A DNA stretch of 64,000 bases from positions 4,375,501 to 4,439,500 of the forward strand of contig NZ_CP104578.1 in NCBI RefSeq assembly GCF_036826855.1. The letters run 5' to 3'. The translations under genes and the position numbers were made by a program. The DNA comes from Streptomyces sp. SJL17-4. GTDB taxonomy: Bacteria; Actinomycetota; Actinomycetes; Streptomycetales; Streptomycetaceae. Below, piece by piece: positions 12,680 through 61,646 of the stretch. The stretch's first letter is position 1, and every line of letters starts with the position of its first letter. Below the pieces are notes generated by a model, which searched no databases, had not been told where the DNA came from, and saw only the letters and a list, made by a program, of their open reading frames with translations.

Positions 12680-13207
12680 GTGGCCGAGCAGCTGTACGCG
12701 ATCCTCAAGACCAGCCTGGGTGACATCGAGGTGCGGCTGATGCCGTTCCACGCCCCGAAGACGGTCAGGAACTTCGTCGAGCTCGCCGGCGGTGAGCGCG
12801 AGTGGACGCACCCGGCGACCGGCACGGTCTCCTCGGACCCGCTCTACGACGGCACGGTCTTCCACCGGGTCATCAAGGGCTTCATGATCCAGGCCGGTGA
12901 CCCGCTGGGGAACGGCACGGGCGGTCCCGGCTACGAGTTCGCCGACGAGTTCCACCCGGAGCTCTTCTTCGACCGTCCCTACCTGCTGGCCATGGCCAAC
13001 GCCGGCCCGGGCACCAACGGCTCGCAGTTCTTCGTCACCGTCGCCCCCGCGACCTGGCTGAACCGCAAGCACACCATCTTCGGCGAGGTCGCGGACAAGG
13101 AGAGCCGGAAGGTCGTGGACGCGATCGCGGCCACCGCCACCGATCCGCACACCGAGCGGCCGCTCCAGGACGTGGTCATCGACTCCGTGGTGATCGAGAA
13201 GCGCTGA
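12680..13207 (+). CDS. Peptidyl-prolyl cis-trans isomerase, cyclophilin type
   Basis: 175 aa cytoplasmic cyclophilin that isomerises Xaa-Pro bonds. The GTG start at 12680 follows GGAAGG. Key active-site residues are visible: FHRVIKGFMIQAGDP (Arg and Phe/Met/Gln of the active site), GPGTNGSQFFVTV (the conserved Q-F) and LNRKHTIFGEV (substrate pocket, His). It has no signal peptide or membrane helix. The rhomboid gene begins 22 bases downstream, so the two are probably co-transcribed. Confidence 0.96.
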   Translation: MAEQLYAILKTSLGDIEVRLMPFHAPKTVRNFVELAGGEREWTHPATGTVSSDPLYDGTVFHRVIKGFMIQAGDPLGNGTGGPGYEFADEFHPELFFDRPYLLAMANAGPGTNGSQFFVTVAPATWLNRKHTIFGEVADKESRKVVDAIAATATDPHTERPLQDVVIDSVVIEKR

Positions 13208-13229
13208 GGCGGAAGGGACGGCACCTCTC

Positions 13230-14114
13230 ATGGAACCGAAACCCTCCGAGAACCCGCACGCCGGTCTGCCGCGCTGCCACCGCCACCCCGAGGTGGAGAC
13301 CGGCATCCGCTGCACGCGCTGCGAGAAGCCGATCTGCCCCGCGTGCATGGTCTCCGCCTCCGTCGGCTTCCAGTGCCCCGACTGCGTACGCAACGGTTCG
13401 GGGACCGGCCACGCCGCCGACGCCAACCAGCCGCGGACGCTCGCGGGCGGCCGGGTCGCGGCGGACGACCGCCTCGTCACCAAGGTCCTCATCGGGATCA
13501 ACCTCGCGGTCTACCTCGCCGTCCTGGCGTTCGGCGACCGGCTCGTCGACGAGCTCGTGCTCATCGGCTACGCCTTCAGTCCGGCACTCGGCGAGCTCGT
13601 CGGGGTCGCCGACGGCGAGTGGTACCGACTGCTGACCTCGACCGTCCTCCACCAGGAGGTCTGGCACATCCTCTTCAACGTGCTGGGCCTGTGGGTGATC
13701 GGCGGGATCGTCGAGCCCGAGCTGGGCCGGATCCGGTACGCGGCCCTGTGCCTGCTCTCCGGCCTCTCCGGCTCCGTGCTGGCCTATCTCGTCGCCGCGC
13801 AGAACCAGCCCTCGCTCGGCGCGTCCGGCGTCGTCTACGGCCTGATCGGCGCCTGGGTGGTGCTCGCCCGTCGGCGCCGCCACGACATGCGGCCCGTGAT
13901 CCTCTTCGTGGCCCTGTCGCTGCTCATGACGTTCACCCGACCGGGGATCTCCTGGGAGGCCCATGTCGGTGGTCTGGTCGCGGGCGTCCTGGTGACGTAC
14001 GCGCTCGTGCACGCGCCGAGAGCCCGCCGGAACCTGGTGCAGTACGGGGCGCTGGCCCTGGTGTTGCTGATCGACGTGGGGATCGTGCTGGCCCGCACGG
14101 TGGCGCTCACCTGA
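13230..14114 (+). CDS. Rhomboid family intramembrane serine protease
   Basis: 294 aa. N-terminal zinc-binding B-box-like module (CHRHPEVETGIRCTRCEKPICPACM...FQCPDC, residues about 11-51), a feature of actinobacterial rhomboids. Six or so membrane helices follow. The catalytic Ser199 lies in GASGVVYG and the catalytic His245 in EAHVGGLVAG, giving the Ser-His dyad. Also present: HILFNVLGLWVIG. Likely cleaves membrane proteins within the bilayer; the substrate is unknown. Convergent with crgA across a region holding DnaA boxes. Confidence 0.94.
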   Translation: MEPKPSENPHAGLPRCHRHPEVETGIRCTRCEKPICPACMVSASVGFQCPDCVRNGSGTGHAADANQPRTLAGGRVAADDRLVTKVLIGINLAVYLAVLAFGDRLVDELVLIGYAFSPALGELVGVADGEWYRLLTSTVLHQEVWHILFNVLGLWVIGGIVEPELGRIRYAALCLLSGLSGSVLAYLVAAQNQPSLGASGVVYGLIGAWVVLARRRRHDMRPVILFVALSLLMTFTRPGISWEAHVGGLVAGVLVTYALVHAPRARRNLVQYGALALVLLIDVGIVLARTVALT

Positions 14115-14125
14115 GCGCACAAGGC

Positions 14126-14361
14126 TGTGGACGAGCTTATCTGTGAGCTTTCCCCAGAGTTATCCACAGTGCGTGGCGGTCTCTCCCCGCTCTCTGGGGA
14201 AAGACCACGCCCCTCGCCTCTGACCTGGTGTTTCTCCAGGGAGGCGAGGGGCGTTCATGGTCTCCGACGAGGGTGATTCCGGTCATACCGGCGTCAACCT
14301 CGTGCGAGTTATCCACAGATCTTCGTAAGTTATCCAGTGCTGTGCACAACGCTGTGGATAA
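14126..14361. promoter_or_regulatory. Cluster of DnaA boxes
   Basis: Three perfect TTATCCACA boxes: 14160-14168 (+), 14309-14317 (+) and 14353-14361 (as TGTGGATAA, -). Near matches are TGTGGACGA at 14126-14134 (reverse, one mismatch from TTGTCCACA), TTATCCAGT at 14330-14338, and TGTGCACAA at 14341-14349 (reverse, one mismatch). All lie in a noncoding gap between convergent genes about 13 kb from gyrB. DnaA-box clusters outside oriC that titrate DnaA are documented in S. coelicolor; whether this is the counterpart of one of them is inference. Confidence 0.75.
14207..14254. terminator. Bidirectional hairpin between rhomboid and crgA
   Basis: 14-bp perfect stem: ACGCCCCTCGCCTC (14207-14220) with GAGGCGAGGGGCGT (14241-14254). 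The 20-base loop can itself pair CCTGG (14224-14228) with CCAGG (14236-14240). It sits inside the DnaA-box region. Confidence 0.7.
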
Positions 14362-14430
14362 GTTCAGGGGAGAGCTTGACGAGCAGCCGGTACGGACGCT
14401 AGACGGCCGCCGTACCCCTGCTGTTCGCCG

Positions 14431-14685
14431 CTACTTCCACTGCGTGGAGACACCGAACCCGGCCGCGATGAAGCCGAAGCCCACCACGATGTTCCAGTTC
14501 CGGATCGACTCGATCGGCATCGAACCGTCGGTGACGTAGAAGACCACGATCCACACCAGACCGATGGCGAACAGCGCGAGCATCACCGGCGCCACCCAGC
14601 TGCGGCTGGTCAGCTTGATCGAGGTGGCCTGCTTCGCGGGCGGGGGCGTGAAGTCGGCCTTCTTGCGGATCCGTGACTTCGGCAC
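14431..14685 (-). CDS. crgA: Cell division protein CrgA
   Basis: 84 aa, the typical CrgA length. CrgA is a two-helix membrane protein that modulates FtsZ ring formation and septation in Streptomyces and links to PBPs in mycobacteria. N-terminus [16 protein letters not shown] is characteristic. Helices: [22 protein letters not shown] and [21 protein letters not shown], the end being the conserved GFGFIAAGF signature. The ATG has AGGAGAGT upstream. Facing the rhomboid gene. Confidence 0.95.
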
Positions 14686-14825
14686 GAGGGACTCTCCTGT
14701 CGATGCGCTGCGTGACCGCGCAGGGAACTGTGGCTGGCGCCGGGATGTGACGAAGGAGGACGACTGCGTCCCCCGGGCGTCCGTTAGCGTAGTGGTTCCG
14801 CGGCACCGAAGGGGATCAGGGTACG

Positions 14826-15593
14826 TTGAGCAATTCCGTCGGCAATCCCGAAGGACCCGGCCGCACCGCGAGGTGGCGCCCCGTCCAGGTTCTCACCCTC
14901 GCCGTTTTCGCCCTCGCCGGACTGATCTTCGTCACGAGCTTCAACACCGCCAAGGGCACCAACATCCGCACCGACGCCTCGCTGCTGCGGCTCTCCGACC
15001 TGATCGAGGAGCGCAGCCACAAGAACGCGGGCCTCGACGAGTCCACCTCCGCCCTCCGCACCCAGGTCGACTCCCTGGTCGCCCGCGACGACGGCTCCAC
15101 GCGCGCGGAGGACGCGAAACTCGACGCGCTGGAGGCGGCCGCGGGCACCACCGAGGTCTCCGGCTCGGGCCTCACCGTCACCCTCAACGACGCCCCGCCG
15201 AACGCCCAGGCCGCCCCCGGCTACCCCGAGCCGCAGGCCAACGACCTGGTCATCCACCAGCAGGACCTCCAGGCCGTCGTCAACGCCCTGTGGCAGGGCG
15301 GCGCCGAGGGCATCCGGGTCATGGACCAGCGGCTCATCTCCACCAGTGCCGTCCGCTGCGTCGGCAACACCCTGATCCTCCAGGGCCGCGTCTACTCACC
15401 GCCGTACAAGATCACCGCCGTGGGCGACAGGGGAAAGCTGACCAAGGCGCTCGCGGGCTCCCCGGCGATCCGGAACTACCAGCTGTACGTGAAGGCCTAC
15501 GGGCTCGGCTGGAAAGTCGACGAGCACCGGGCGGTGACTCTTCCCGGGTACTCGGGCACAGTGGACCTCCACCAAGCGAAGCCGGTGCGCTGA
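14826..15593 (+). CDS. DUF881 family envelope protein
   Basis: 255 aa. TTG 14826 is used as start, with CAGGG four bases before and AAGGGG eleven before it. One N-terminal membrane helix ([23 protein letters not shown]), then an extracytoplasmic part with a coiled coil ([33 protein letters not shown]) and the DUF881 core ([10 protein letters not shown]...[33 protein letters not shown]). Family of unknown function, found beside division and sortase genes in actinobacteria. Starts the rightward block leading into the sortases. Confidence 0.88.
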
Positions 15594-33768: not shown

Positions 33769-33791
33769 TTATCCACAGGCGCTTGTCCACA
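33769..33791 (+). promoter_or_regulatory. Pair of perfect DnaA boxes
   Basis: TTATCCACA (33769-33777) and TTGTCCACA (33783-33791), same orientation, 14 bp start to start, about 80 bp before the DUF2252 start. The second is the Streptomyces-preferred form. Confidence 0.7.
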
Positions 33792-49513: not shown

Positions 49514-49571
49514 GTCCCCCCGCCTCTCTCCCGTGGACGACCTGTACTCATCCCAGGCTGTGGAGAACCGT

Positions 49572-49580
49572 TTGTCCACA
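49572..49580 (+). promoter_or_regulatory. DnaA box in the Lrp/bkd intergenic
   Basis: TTGTCCACA, perfect Streptomyces form; a one-mismatch partner TGTGGAGAA (reverse) is at 49559-49567. Confidence 0.55.
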
Positions 49581-54407: not shown

Positions 54408-55795
54408 CCCTGAAGGAGCCCCTCCCGGTGGCCCCCGGTACCGACGACGCACGGGCCGGGCGACCGCACCGGGCCACCGCCTGGCCCGAGGCACGCGCCG
54501 CGGCTGTCCGCGCCGGTGCCTCCGCGCGGGCAGGCCGCGCGCCGCTCGGCGTACCCCTCGGGCAGGCACTCGGCCAGGTCCTGGCCGAGCCGCTGCGCGC
54601 CCTCACCGACCTGCCGCCCTTCGACACCTCCGCCATGGACGGCTGGGCGGTCGCGGGGCCGGGGCCCTGGACCGTACGCGCGGAGGGCGCCGTCCTCGCC
54701 GGGCACACGTCCGCGGCTGTGGCGGCCGACGGCGAGGCCGTACGGATCGCCACCGGCGCCCCCGTCCCCGCCGGTACCACCGCCGTCGTCCGCACCGAGC
54801 ACTCACGCACCGAAGGCGCCCTGCTGCACGTCCTGCGCGAGGTCGTGCCGGGGCAGGACATCCGGCCCCGGGGCCAGGAGTGCCGCTCCGGCGACGAGCT
54901 GCTGCCCGCGGGCACCGTCGTGACCCCCGCCGTGCTCGGCCTCGCCGCGGCCGCCGGCTACGACGAGCTCCCCGTACCGCCGCGCCCCCGGGTCGAGATC
55001 CTGGTCCTCGGAGACGAGCTGCTCACGACGGGGCTCCCCCACGACGGCCTCATCCGTGACGCCCTCGGCCCGATGCTCGGCCCGTGGCTGACGGCGCTCG
55101 GCGCCGAGGTCCTCGCCACCCGCCGGATCGGTGACGAGGCCGAGGAGCTGTACGCGGCCGTCACCGGTTCCGCCGCCGACCTGGTCCTCACGACCGGCGG
55201 GACCGCCGCCGGGCCCGTGGACCACGTCCACGGCGTGCTGGCGAAGGCCGGCGCGACCCTCCTGGTCGACGGCGTGAAGGTCCGGCCGGGCCACCCGATG
55301 CTGCTCGCCCGCCTTGCCGCCGGGCCCGCCGGGCCCGAGTCCACCCGGCCCGAGCGCCCGGGGGCCCAGCCCGCGCCGAACGCGCCGAACGCGCCGCACG
55401 CGCCGAACGCTCCGCGCGCGCACGTCCGTCATCTCGTCGGGCTCCCCGGTAACCCGCTCGCGGCCGTCTCCGGGCTTCTCACGCTGGCCGAGCCGCTCCT
55501 GGCGGCCCTGACCGGGGCCGCGGCGGAGACGAACGTCCCGCCCCGCGTCCCCGTCCAGGACGAGGTTCACGGGCATCCGTACGACACCCGGCTCGTCCCG
55601 GTCGTCCGCCGTGGCGGACGCGCCGTGCCCCTGCGCTACAACGGACCCGCCATGCTCCGCGGCATCGCCGCCGCCGACGGCCTGGCCGTCGTCCCGCCCG
55701 GCGGCGCCCGCCCCGGCCAAGAACTGGATGTCCTCGACCTTCCCTGGCCGGCGGCCGAGGGGGCCGTACCGGCCCAAGGAGCGTGTTTCACGTGA
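54404..55795 (+). CDS. moeA: Molybdopterin molybdotransferase MoeA
   Basis: 463 aa. Inserts molybdenum into molybdopterin. Motifs: PPFDTSAMDGWAV, RIATGAPVPAGTTAVVR (typical GAP-P), LTTGGTAAGPVDHVHGVLAKAG (TTGG mogA/moeA domain) and GLPGNPLAAVSGL. An inserted low-complexity stretch (PESTRPERPGAQPAPNAPNAPHAPNAPRAH, 9-bp repeats) separates the last two domains, which is unusual. The stop codon lies inside a parS site. Confidence 0.92.
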   Translation: MTLKEPLPVAPGTDDARAGRPHRATAWPEARAAAVRAGASARAGRAPLGVPLGQALGQVLAEPLRALTDLPPFDTSAMDGWAVAGPGPWTVRAEGAVLAGHTSAAVAADGEAVRIATGAPVPAGTTAVVRTEHSRTEGALLHVLREVVPGQDIRPRGQECRSGDELLPAGTVVTPAVLGLAAAAGYDELPVPPRPRVEILVLGDELLTTGLPHDGLIRDALGPMLGPWLTALGAEVLATRRIGDEAEELYAAVTGSAADLVLTTGGTAAGPVDHVHGVLAKAGATLLVDGVKVRPGHPMLLARLAAGPAGPESTRPERPGAQPAPNAPNAPHAPNAPRAHVRHLVGLPGNPLAAVSGLLTLAEPLLAALTGAAAETNVPPRVPVQDEVHGHPYDTRLVPVVRRGGRAVPLRYNGPAMLRGIAAADGLAVVPPGGARPGQELDVLDLPWPAAEGAVPAQGACFT

Positions 55796-56877
55796 AACTT
55801 CCCAGTCGTGACGCGATGGCCCGCCACGCGGACGAGCGGATCTCCGGCCCGCAGATCAGGCTGCCGCGCCGACAGGTCGAGCGTCCCCTGCGCCAGGTCG
55901 GCAAGCGGCTGCTCATGGCGCTCGGCGTGCTCGCCCTGACGGTCCTCATCGTCTACGTCGACCGCGCCGGCTACCACGACAACGCCAACGAGACGCTCGA
56001 CTTCCTCGACTGCGCCTACTACGCGACCGTCACGCTCTCCACCACCGGATACGGCGACATCGTCCCGTACAGCGACTCGGCGCGGCTCGCCAACATCCTG
56101 CTGGTCACGCCCCTGCGCGTGCTGTTTCTGATCATCCTGGTCGGCACCACCCTCGAGGTCCTCACGGAGCGGACCCGCGAGGAGTTCCGGCTGAACCGCT
56201 GGAGGTCCACCTTGCGCGACCACACCGTCATCGTCGGCTTCGGCACCAAGGGGCGGTCCGCGATCCAGACGCTCTGCGCGACCGGTCTCAACAAGGAGCA
56301 GATCGTCATCGTCGATCCCTCCAACAAGGTGATCGAGACGGCCAACGCGGACGGATTCGTCGGTGTGGTCGGCGACGCGACCCGCAGCGATGTACTGCTC
56401 CGCGCCGAGGTGCAGCGGGCCCGGCAGATCGTCATCGCCACCCAGCGCGACGACACGGCCGTCCTGGTCACGCTTACGGCCCGGCAGCTCAACCGGGGCG
56501 CGAAGATCGTCGCCGCGGTCCGCGAGGAGGAGAACGCGCCGCTGCTGCGCCAGTCCGGCGCGGACGCGGTCATCACCAGCGCCAGCGCCGCCGGACGTCT
56601 GCTGGGCCTTTCCGTGCTGAGCCCCAGCGCCGGCACGGTGATGGAGGACCTCATCCAGCAGGGCTCCGGCCTCGACCTGGTGGAGCGCCCGGTGACCAAG
56701 AGCGAGGCCGGGAAGAGCGTGCGCGAGACCGGTGACCTGGTCGTGAGCGTGCTGCGCGGCCACCGGCTGCTCGGTTACGACGACCCCGCGGCCAGCCCGC
56801 TCCAGCTCACCGACCGGGTGATCACCATCGTGCGCGCCGCGCCGGTCACCCCGCTCAGGACGCCGCCGGAGGACTGA
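55783..56877 (+). CDS. Potassium channel with RCK/TrkA-N domain
   Basis: 364 aa from GTG 55783, or GTG 55792 (VKLPSRD...), which has GGAG at 55778-55781 ten bases before it; both lie in the parS site. One or two membrane helices with the pore loop and selectivity filter TLSTTGYGDIVP, then a cytoplasmic RCK domain with Rossmann motif VIVGFGTKGRSAI and IVIVDPSNKVIETANADG, ending in TrkA-C-like GDLVVSVLRGHRLLGYDDP. Controls K+ flux. Confidence 0.92.
   Translation: MFHVKLPSRDAMARHADERISGPQIRLPRRQVERPLRQVGKRLLMALGVLALTVLIVYVDRAGYHDNANETLDFLDCAYYATVTLSTTGYGDIVPYSDSARLANILLVTPLRVLFLIILVGTTLEVLTERTREEFRLNRWRSTLRDHTVIVGFGTKGRSAIQTLCATGLNKEQIVIVDPSNKVIETANADGFVGVVGDATRSDVLLRAEVQRARQIVIATQRDDTAVLVTLTARQLNRGAKIVAAVREEENAPLLRQSGADAVITSASAAGRLLGLSVLSPSAGTVMEDLIQQGSGLDLVERPVTKSEAGKSVRETGDLVVSVLRGHRLLGYDDPAASPLQLTDRVITIVRAAPVTPLRTPPED
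55785..55798. promoter_or_regulatory. ParB-binding parS site
   Basis: GTTTCACGTGAAAC, the perfect 14-bp parS palindrome. It overlaps the end of moeA and the first codons of the channel gene. In Streptomyces parS sites cluster around oriC and are bound by ParB for segregation, consistent with this location. Confidence 0.93.
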
Positions 56878-58785: not shown

Positions 58786-61646
58786 TCAGGTCGCCGCGCG
58801 CCGGGACAGCGCGCCGCGCGAGCGGGTCACCAGGGCGGCGAGCAGCGCGGCACCCACGGGTACGGCGACGAGCAGGCCGGCGAGGGTCTCCCAGGGGATG
58901 ACGATCGGGACGTACGGCACGTCCGAGGCCGCGCTCCAGCCCTGGGCGACGGCTTCCTCGTGCCAGCTGATCTGCTGCCGCTCCTCGCTGAGCCGGAGGC
59001 CCATCGCCGGCAGCACTCCGGCGGCCGAGCCGAGGAGTACGCCCATCGCGGCGACGACGCCGCACTGGAAGCCGCTGAGGGTCCGGCGGACCCGCGGCGG
59101 GGCGCCCACGGCGGCGAGCGTCTTCAGATCGGCCTCGGCGTCGGCCTGGGCGAGCCCGGTGGCGATGCCGGCGGCGCCGACCGTGACGAGCCCCGCGAAG
59201 ATCGCCAGCGACAGCAGAATGAGGCTGCTGGCGTTGACGAATCCTTCCTCCACATGGAGTTCGACACTGCTGCCGAGCTTGGTGAGCTCGCCGTCGAGCT
59301 TCTGGCGCGCCTCGGTGTCGGGCAGCCGGTCGGTGCTGGCGTACGCGCCGAGCGGCACCGTCGCCAGTCCTGCGGCCTTGGCGGTGGCCGGGGTGAGCAG
59401 GGCCTGGACGCCGTAGGACTGCTTGTCTCCGGGCACCTGGTAGGCGGGCAGGGAGGTGACCTTGCCGGGAGCGGGCTTGCCCTTCTCGGAGGCCTTCTCG
59501 GCGGCGGCGAGGTCGGTGATCTGCTTGATCCCGTACGTGCCGTTCTTGTCGACGTTGACGGGGTTGAAGCTGACGACCTTGCCGTCCTCGAGGGCCTTCA
59601 CGGTCGCGGGGTCGTCGAGGCCGAGCACCTTCAGGAGCGCGGCGTCTCCGACGACCAGCCCGCCGTCGGCGACGTACATCCCACCGCTACGGCCCTCCTT
59701 GCACCGCCAGTCCTCGGCGAGCATCTTCCGCCGCTGTTCGGGCGTGTACTTCTCCGTGGGGTCTCCGCCGCCGGGGATCGCCACGTACATGGGGCACTCG
59801 TTCGCCGGGGGGACGACGACCTCGAAGCGTCCGCACCCCTTGCCGGTGTCCCACGGCTGGCAGCCGGGCTTGCCGACCGAGATGCGCTGGACATCGGCGC
59901 GCACGTCGACGGGGACGTACTTCTGGATCGCCTCGCGGACCGCGGGGACGTCCCGGCCGCCCTCCTCGTTGACGAACGCGGCGACGGTTCCGTGCGGCAG
60001 CTGAGCCGTGTACTCGGCCCGGCGCTGGGCCTCCTCGCTGGCCATGTACGTGGAGACGGCGACCGTACCGGCGACGGCGGCGAGGACGGCGGCGACGGCG
60101 GGCGCCGTACGGCCCCGGTTGCGCACGGCGTCCCGCAGCGCCAGCCGCGGCGACAGCGGCAGCCAGCGCCCGGCCCGCCCGAACAGGCCCACCAGGGCCG
60201 GGGTCATGGCGACGACGCCCAGCTCGGCGATGGCGGAGCCGCCGGCCACGATGATGAACTGCTGGCTGACGATCGAGCCGAAGAGCGCGATGGCGCCGCC
60301 GACCAGGACCGCCGCGAGGCCGATCAGGGGCAGCACCCGGCTGCTGCGGCGGACGCCGCGTCGGCCGGTGAGCGAGGCGAGGACGGTCTGCCGGGAGGCG
60401 GTGATCGCCGGCACGATGGCGGCGAGCAGACCGGTCAGCACGGCGAGCAGCGCGATGCCGAGGATTTCGAGCGGCCGGACGTCGAAGGCGCCGAACCGCT
60501 GGCCCATGGTCTCCTCGAGGTACGGCTGGAGCGCCTTCGTGAGGATCAGGGCGAGGACCGTACCGGTGACCGCCGCGGCGACACCGATGACCAGACCGCC
60601 GCTCAGCACGATGGCCCGGATGTGGCTGCGGGCACCGCCGTTGGCCCCGACCAGACCGAGCTGGCGGCGCGAGCGACGGGCGCCGACCGCGAAGGCGGGT
60701 CCGGCGAGCAGACAGATCTCCAGCATCGCCAGACCGACGACGGTGCCGAGGGCGGCGAGTTCGGCGGCATTGCCCACCGTGCTGGACTCGAAGTTGCCCC
60801 AGCCCTCCTTCTGGTAGAGCGGGATCTCGGAGTCGGCCGGCGGGTCGATGATCACGGCACGCGAGGAGACGATCACACCCTTGGCGTTGATCTCCTTGAC
60901 CATGTTCCACGTGAAACCACCGGACTTGCGCACCAGGTACGTGGTGCCCGTGTCGGGCTTCTGCAGACCGGCCTTCTCCATGGCCTTCGCGTAGGGGGCG
61001 AGGAAGGCCCCGGGGAGCGCGTTGACCTGGTCGGAGTTCAGCTGATCGGGAATCTCGTAGGAGCCGACGATCCGATACGGGCGGTCGAAATTGCGTGCGG
61101 AAAGGGTCGAGCCGACCGAGAGACCGCTGCTCTCCAGGAAGTGCGAGGTCGCGATGACCTCGTCGTTCTTCTCCGGGTAGCGCCCCTCCAGAAGAGTCGT
61201 GATGCCCCGGGCGATCGGATCGGCTGCCTTCAGCTCACGCACCTCGGTCACGAGCAGACCGTGCTTCGTCGTCAGCTTGGCCGATCCGGACCTGTCCGTG
61301 AGGACCGTGGAACCCGCGGGGAAGGTCTTGGTGACATCGGTCGAGCCGCTCGGCCAGGTCATGTCCTCGTAGTCCTTGGCCGGCGTGTTCATCTCGCCGA
61401 CCGGGTCCTGGAAGATCGGGACCCCGCCGTAGCCCGCGTCCTTGAACCGGGCGTCGGCCGCGCCGATCATGCGATCCGCCCGCTCGGTGGGAGACAGCTC
61501 GGAGCTGCGGAAGGTCAGATCGAGGGCGCTGACACCCAGGATCGGCAGGGCGATCATGGCCAGGACGAGGGCGCTGCGGCCCTTGGAACGCCAGGCGTCG
61601 CGGCGGGCGATCCGGATGGCGGCCCGCCAGGAGTGGAGCCAGGTCT

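Follow-up and report, generated by a model that had tools for sequence, protein, structure and literature searches.

What do the DnaA boxes do that lie between two convergent genes close to the replication origin of this chromosome? To our knowledge, the restraint of initiation in multi-genome streptomycete hyphae is poorly understood, and a fixed-geometry site that adjoins a division gene and carries a second conserved motif offers a small target for telling apart storage, inactivation and gating of DnaA, and for probing an involvement of MtrA. The stretch of DNA that was analysed (64 kb, hereafter the window, to which coordinates refer unless stated otherwise) contains what is, judging from genome comparison, a strongly supported prediction of a conserved DnaA-binding site. 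Rather probably, the site is a DnaA-binding element close to the origin that acts as a DnaA sink restraining initiation; its most likely ortholog in S. coelicolor is the H69 cluster. Because the arrangement is nearly constant across streptomycetes, the conserved sites very probably matter for the timing of the start of chromosome copying.

The boxes occupy a 316-bp intergenic region (14115–14430) bounded by a rhomboid-family membrane protease gene (13230–14114, forward strand, stop codon ending at 14114; Pfam PF01694, E 6.5e-37) and the cell-division regulator gene crgA (14431–14685, reverse strand, stop codon beginning at 14431; Pfam PF06781, E 1.5e-27). An earlier note on this DNA had described noncoding DNA between convergent genes, and with both genes confirmed by Pfam this setting holds. 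The three perfect TTATCCACA sites given in that note at 14160, 14309 and, reversed, 14353 are reproduced at exactly these positions by word scan: box C (14160–14168, forward strand; many relatives have G at position 3), box B (14309–14317, forward strand) and box A (14353–14361, reverse strand), which faces B. As for the at least three further sites with one or two mismatches, the scan yields three, each with two mismatches. These are the weak box D, TCGTCCACA (14126–14134, reverse strand), whose place is occupied in part of the closest relatives, a weak box TTATCCAGT (14330–14338, forward strand, 21 bp from B) within a block partly conserved in the alignment, and the weak box A', TTGTGCACA (14341–14349, reverse strand, 12 bp from A), which is a perfect box in some relatives. 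TCGTCCACA (14126) and TTGTGCACA (14341) are each one mismatch off TTGTCCACA.

Two other elements belong to the region. Motif M, GTTGACGCCGGTATGAC (14282–14298, reverse strand), adjoins box B on the crgA strand, and the hairpin reported inside the cluster is recovered by inverted-repeat scan between C and B (14207–14254), with 14-bp perfect arms at 14207–14220 and 14241–14254. Starting from the crgA stop, one meets A, A', the weak box at 14330, B, motif M, the hairpin, C and D before the rhomboid stop is reached. An additional inverted repeat, GTGAGCTTTCCCCAGAG / CTCTGGGGAAAGACCAC (88%), encloses box C at 14143–14208 and could form a further hairpin in the 3' region of the rhomboid gene. The origin, identified as the dnaA-dnaN intergenic region (both genes Pfam-confirmed), is located ~17.5 kb to the left of the cluster, outside the window, in agreement with the near-origin location claimed earlier.

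Perfect boxes are rare in this genome: 14 copies of TTATCCACA are present in 8.54 Mb, and 3 of these are packed into 202 bp here. According to a dinucleotide model of the window, 3.1 perfect boxes are expected in the genome and 0.00012 in the 316-bp intergenic region, so that the rarity by chance assumed in the earlier note is borne out. With at most one mismatch, the 64-kb window has 11 DnaA sites versus 1.49 expected, a number reached in none of 100 shuffles. The oriC region contains mismatched boxes only and no perfect TTATCCACA; one TTGTCCACA is found near the dnaA start, and the genome holds 39 copies of this word. In S. coelicolor the high-affinity box is tabulated as TTGTCCACA, not TTATCCACA (PMC4285127), which calls for caution and is counted against the DnaA-sink reading. 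Elsewhere in the window, two perfect boxes, TTATCCACA and TTGTCCACA, stand in tandem at a distance of 14 bp, close to where a long ORF begins (33769–33791), and TTCTCCACA (reverse strand) and TTGTCCACA (forward strand), 13 bp apart, point away from each other (49559–49580).

The CrgA of this genome shares up to 99% identity with that of named Streptomyces, and on this ground the genome is assigned to the genus. Regarding conservation within Streptomyces, 110 Streptomyces-type loci were compared, namely the best 80 named loci of 512 relatives and the loci from the best 30 of 61 genomes, the latter set including the window's own locus (L017). By title, the 80 named loci comprise 78 from Streptomyces, one from Microtetraspora and one from Kitasatospora. 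The whole set is biased to close relatives, with 109 distinct intergenic sequences among the 110. The script finds the facing perfect pair A-B in all 110 loci, and every locus has at least two TTATCCACA; exact matches to TTRTCCACA number 2, 3 and 4 in 2, 92 and 16 loci, respectively. Conservation among streptomycetes, proposed earlier as a check, is therefore found for the boxes, their orientation and their spacing in 110/110 loci. Within the 80 named loci, 249 exact boxes fall at most 500 bp past the crgA stop versus 9 in the remaining bins, with 4 for the reversed-word control. A search of the genus with a B-to-C pattern permitting a spacing of 138–168 gives matches in 338 of 392 genomes (reversed control 0). 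Eight loci (L208–L215) were fetched from the 54 pattern-negative genomes, and 7 of them have the facing pair, with C missing in two and at another spacing in five; the eighth, L208, has a single exact box. In the alignment the boxes persist, and much of the intergenic sequence between them is variable. Taken across loci, the comparison shows that the place, orientation and spacing of the three perfect and the weaker predicted boxes are maintained by selection. Two loci titled Microtetraspora glauca (L059) and Kitasatospora aureofaciens (L119) have a Streptomyces-like crgA region, and these names may be wrong.

Outside the genus, 32 loci of 16 genera of the same family were obtained from 51 other-genus genomes. 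The facing pair is present in 31 of them, 30 by script and one (L191) with a pair at 680/723, beyond the 650-bp cut of the script; L184 is without an exact A. Over 40 further loci, which combine other-genus and less similar Streptomyces loci, the script reports the facing pair in 37. At greater distance, the 400 bp that follow crgA were scored for exact boxes. One or more are present in 11 of the 12 loci from other families of the order (fetched from 15 genomes) and, for the remainder of the class, in 17 of 28 loci hand-chosen from 62 non-genus genomes with a match. The other 11 class-level loci lack an exact box in this interval, which is counted against the favored explanation. Boxes are enriched after crgA in the 28 class-level loci, with 20 in 11.2 kb there versus 5 in 99.1 kb elsewhere (reversed-word control 0). 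On the basis of these family, order and class counts, the association of DnaA boxes with the end of crgA seems to be ancient in the class, and the full core to belong to the family. In another family of the order (L137–L147), other box layouts follow crgA, with two same-strand boxes 21 bp apart in seven g3 loci and wide facing pairs in three g5 loci.

The geometry of the core was evaluated over the 147 loci with a script-found facing pair. An exact A box lies 41–46 bp from B (start to start) in 111 of them, only at 52–66 bp in 25 and only at 29–33 bp, the place of A', in 11; A' sits 12 bp closer to B than A does. Of the 147 loci, 134 have an exact C at 50–200 bp from B, including 107 of the 110 Streptomyces-type ones; such a C is absent from this interval in 8 of 30 other-genus loci and five of the rest (in L052, C falls outside the boundary used by the script). 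Among these 134 loci, the B-C spacing equals 147–151 bp in 93 and 157–161 bp in 17, never 152–156 bp, with the other 24 spanning 55–188 bp. A similar picture is given by 150 hand-transcribed genus matches, of which 119 have 146–150 bp, none 151–154 bp, 2 have 155–156 bp and 25 have 157–162 bp, with 4 others. The two spacings of ~149 and ~159 bp with almost none between are apparently new.

Tree-based changes in spacing of 4–25 bp fall at 9–12 or 20–23 bp in 18 of 20 cases for B-C and 9 of 11 for A-B, versus 23 of 40 and 10 of 15 changes of the same classes in flanking control intervals (pooled Fisher p 0.013). Changes above 25 bp were excluded from these counts (11 for B-C, 0 for A-B, 35 and 13 for the controls), and some such B-C changes do not equal whole helical turns. 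The excess in the first control may come partly from a switch between A and A' as the reference point. A Rayleigh test on distinct spacings, a statistic that ignores relatedness, gives p 0.0002 with a best period of 11.15. These values are suggestive of B and C being kept on one helix face through steps of ~10–12 bp, the controls being partly biased in the same manner.

When one mismatch and G-T pairs are tolerated, a hairpin with arms of 12 bp or more occurs in 72 of 134 loci versus 23 of 134 shuffled ones, and one with arms of 10 bp or more in 127 versus 81, so the structure is above chance but not uniform. A probable role is that of a two-way terminator for both convergent genes. The 14207–14254 hairpin is missed by a terminator scan whose criteria include a T run and a short loop, and Rfam gives no match up to E 0.1 in 13000–15500.

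Motif M, with the consensus GTTGACGCCGGTGTGAC on the crgA strand, matches at no fewer than 12 of 17 positions in 127 of the 147 scored loci; its first base lies 19 bp beyond that of box B in 112, 20 bp in 14 and 29 bp in 1. By group, this level is reached in 109 of 110 Streptomyces-type, 6 of 7 less similar Streptomyces and 12 of 30 other-genus loci. With 14 other genera scored (g64 and g71 lie outside the scoring), five reach it (g61, g62, g63, g67 and g70) and nine stay below 12. The genome has one exact copy of M and seven more matches at two mismatches versus one reversed-control match; the single exact copy led us to reject M as a regulon motif. A small-RNA promoter with TTGAC as the −35 element was likewise rejected, since a sigma-70 scan of 13900–14900 finds no promoter-like site, and no −10 element is seen by eye near M in relatives. 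M shows no apparent fit to the sites of BldD, PhoP, LexA, NrdR, WhiA and AdpA. By eye it is also unlike the quoted IHF consensus, and no IHF site was identified.

M resembles MtrA sites. The consensus form of M fits the S. coelicolor MtrA consensus, [G/T]T[G/A]ACC-N5-GT[G/T]AC (PMC5650626), at 10 of 11 specified positions, whereas the centre, left free in the MtrA consensus, is conserved in M. Next to B, 50 of 110 loci reach a best MtrA score of 10 or 11 of 11, compared with 0 of 110 control 30-mers (one per locus). The copy of M in the window scores 9 of 11, a value found at 43 positions of the 64 kb (M included), and three positions score 10. In S. venezuelae both oriC and dnaA are bound by MtrA, and the MtrA of M. 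tuberculosis reportedly binds DnaA (PMC5487470). Against an MtrA site, the Streptomyces MtrA papers that were searched for crgA do not mention the gene in their main text. The likeness of M to MtrA sites is thus suggestive only. Public S. venezuelae MtrA ChIP-seq data (GSE84311; PMC5487470) could support or weaken the bolder reading with MtrA given below.

With regard to identity, the earlier note was unable to match the group to a known S. coelicolor cluster. Smulczyk-Krawczyszyn et al. in 2006 reportedly described three non-oriC DnaA-box clusters in this species, H69, H24 and D78, and deletion of D78 is said to have raised replication frequency. Like the H69 type, the region at crgA has several DnaA boxes close together outside oriC and near it. 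A second strong cluster is present in our genome on the opposite side of oriC, ~85 kb from it, at genome positions 4286437–4286774 (L004:1443–1780), between the genes for prephenate dehydratase (pheA-like) and seryl-tRNA synthetase (serS); seven boxes in it deviate from TTRTCCACA by no more than one mismatch, two of them being perfect. Through the link of gene to cosmid, we assume that this pheA-serS cluster is probably the D78 counterpart, and therefore the D78 deletion phenotype should not be transferred untested to the crgA site. Cosmid H69 contains SCO3857 (PMC3878966) and CrgA is SCO3854 (PMC4416010); because of this proximity, the evidence points to H69 as the cluster at the crgA-side place, and the crgA-side cluster is probably its ortholog, the link being through the cosmid name alone. 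The cluster as such is very likely already known, reported in one species. Judged by the openly licensed literature that was searched, three features are apparently new, namely the link of the boxes to crgA in the class members sampled, the fixed A-A'-B core and motif M.

How such a site could act as a sink can be outlined as follows. The perfect boxes would be the first occupied by DnaA, with A, A' and B taken into one complex that C may join across the hairpin. For Streptomyces DnaA, contacts through domain I and a long domain II have been proposed to link distant boxes within oriC (PMC13270200). The fork reaches the cluster after ~17.5 kb, and its passage soon after initiation would double the sink and lower free DnaA, so that weak oriC boxes might not be refilled until more DnaA is made. 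M may be a site for a second protein aiding or gating the complex in Streptomyces and some sister genera. Transcription of crgA might also displace DnaA from A and B, given that the two groups of boxes are located in what are presumably the 3' untranslated parts of the convergent genes. In S. coelicolor and B. subtilis, the clusters are said to repress untimely initiations (PMC10950094), and removal of six clusters in B. subtilis leads to early initiation (PMC5295017); these B. subtilis clusters likewise lie outside oriC and are likened to ours by description, not by sequence. The titration of DnaA proposed in the earlier note fits the position of the cluster and such published views, but it is not separable from hydrolysis of DnaA-ATP or another DnaA function. 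Against a sink, three perfect boxes are few for titrating DnaA by number alone.

The main rival is hydrolysis of the datA type, since datA itself, at first understood as a titration site, was subsequently found to work chiefly through ATP hydrolysis (PMC5835720). Here DnaA and a second protein at M would form a machine in which ATP is hydrolysed and DnaA inactivated, not only stored. The E. coli datA is likewise oriC-proximal, with few boxes and a site for a second protein; it needs boxes 2, 7 and 3 and an IHF site between 2 and 3 (PMC5835720). The small number of boxes at crgA, the rigid spacing of A, A' and B, and a further conserved motif that keeps its distance from B constant, for a hypothetical partner, are consistent with this explanation. 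However, M reaches 12 of 17 positions in only 5 of 14 scored other genera while the boxes remain, and since the boxes persist in genera without M, M is not essential to the element. Overall, we hold a datA-like machine to be unlikely, although worth considering. An equally tentative and bolder proposal is that of an ancient composite replication-control element of Actinomycetes, in which DnaA at the A/A'-B core loops to C and, in Streptomyces and certain sister genera, a response regulator (probably MtrA) bound next to B at a constant distance gates the complex, datA-like with MtrA in the place of IHF. If this were true, envelope or osmotic signals as well as crgA transcription would feed into DnaA availability.

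Quite improbable is a DnaA roadblock that sets the 3' ends of crgA and rhomboid transcripts, or their read-through, with no direct role in initiation. The boxes do lie in presumed 3' untranslated parts of both genes and flank the hairpin, and in E. coli read-through transcription dissociates IHF from datA (PMC10950094). Nonetheless, the boxes stay in the alignment while much of the intervening intergenic sequence varies. Upstream of the crgA stop, the 80 named loci also have zero exact boxes in any of four 250-bp bins, which leaves no promoter-type arrangement for crgA.

Reactivation of the DARS type, with the facing boxes juxtaposing ADP-DnaA head to head so that ADP is released, appears more doubtful still. 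A DARS core consists of three boxes, of which I and II are opposed (PMC8682772), and the opposed boxes in the conserved cores of E. coli DARS1 and DARS2 recall A/A' facing B; the likeness concerns box orientation, not base-level spacing. The published Streptomyces clusters, in contrast, are described as negative regulators (PMC10950094). Finally, chance boxes or drift without function can be practically dismissed, as no supporting point was found and the shuffles, genome rarity, dinucleotide expectation and conservation from genus to class contradict it.

Two other roles were considered for the region and rejected. An oriC or secondary origin does not fit its 60% GC, with no 50-bp segment (taken every 35 bp) below 50% GC, and the dnaA-dnaN region lies elsewhere. 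As for a segregation site, the cluster has no parS-like 14-mer with up to two mismatches. In the rest of the window, a perfect parS-like palindrome, GTTTCACGTGAAAC, occurs at 55785–55798, and a one-mismatch copy at 60904–60917; these are the only two in the window.
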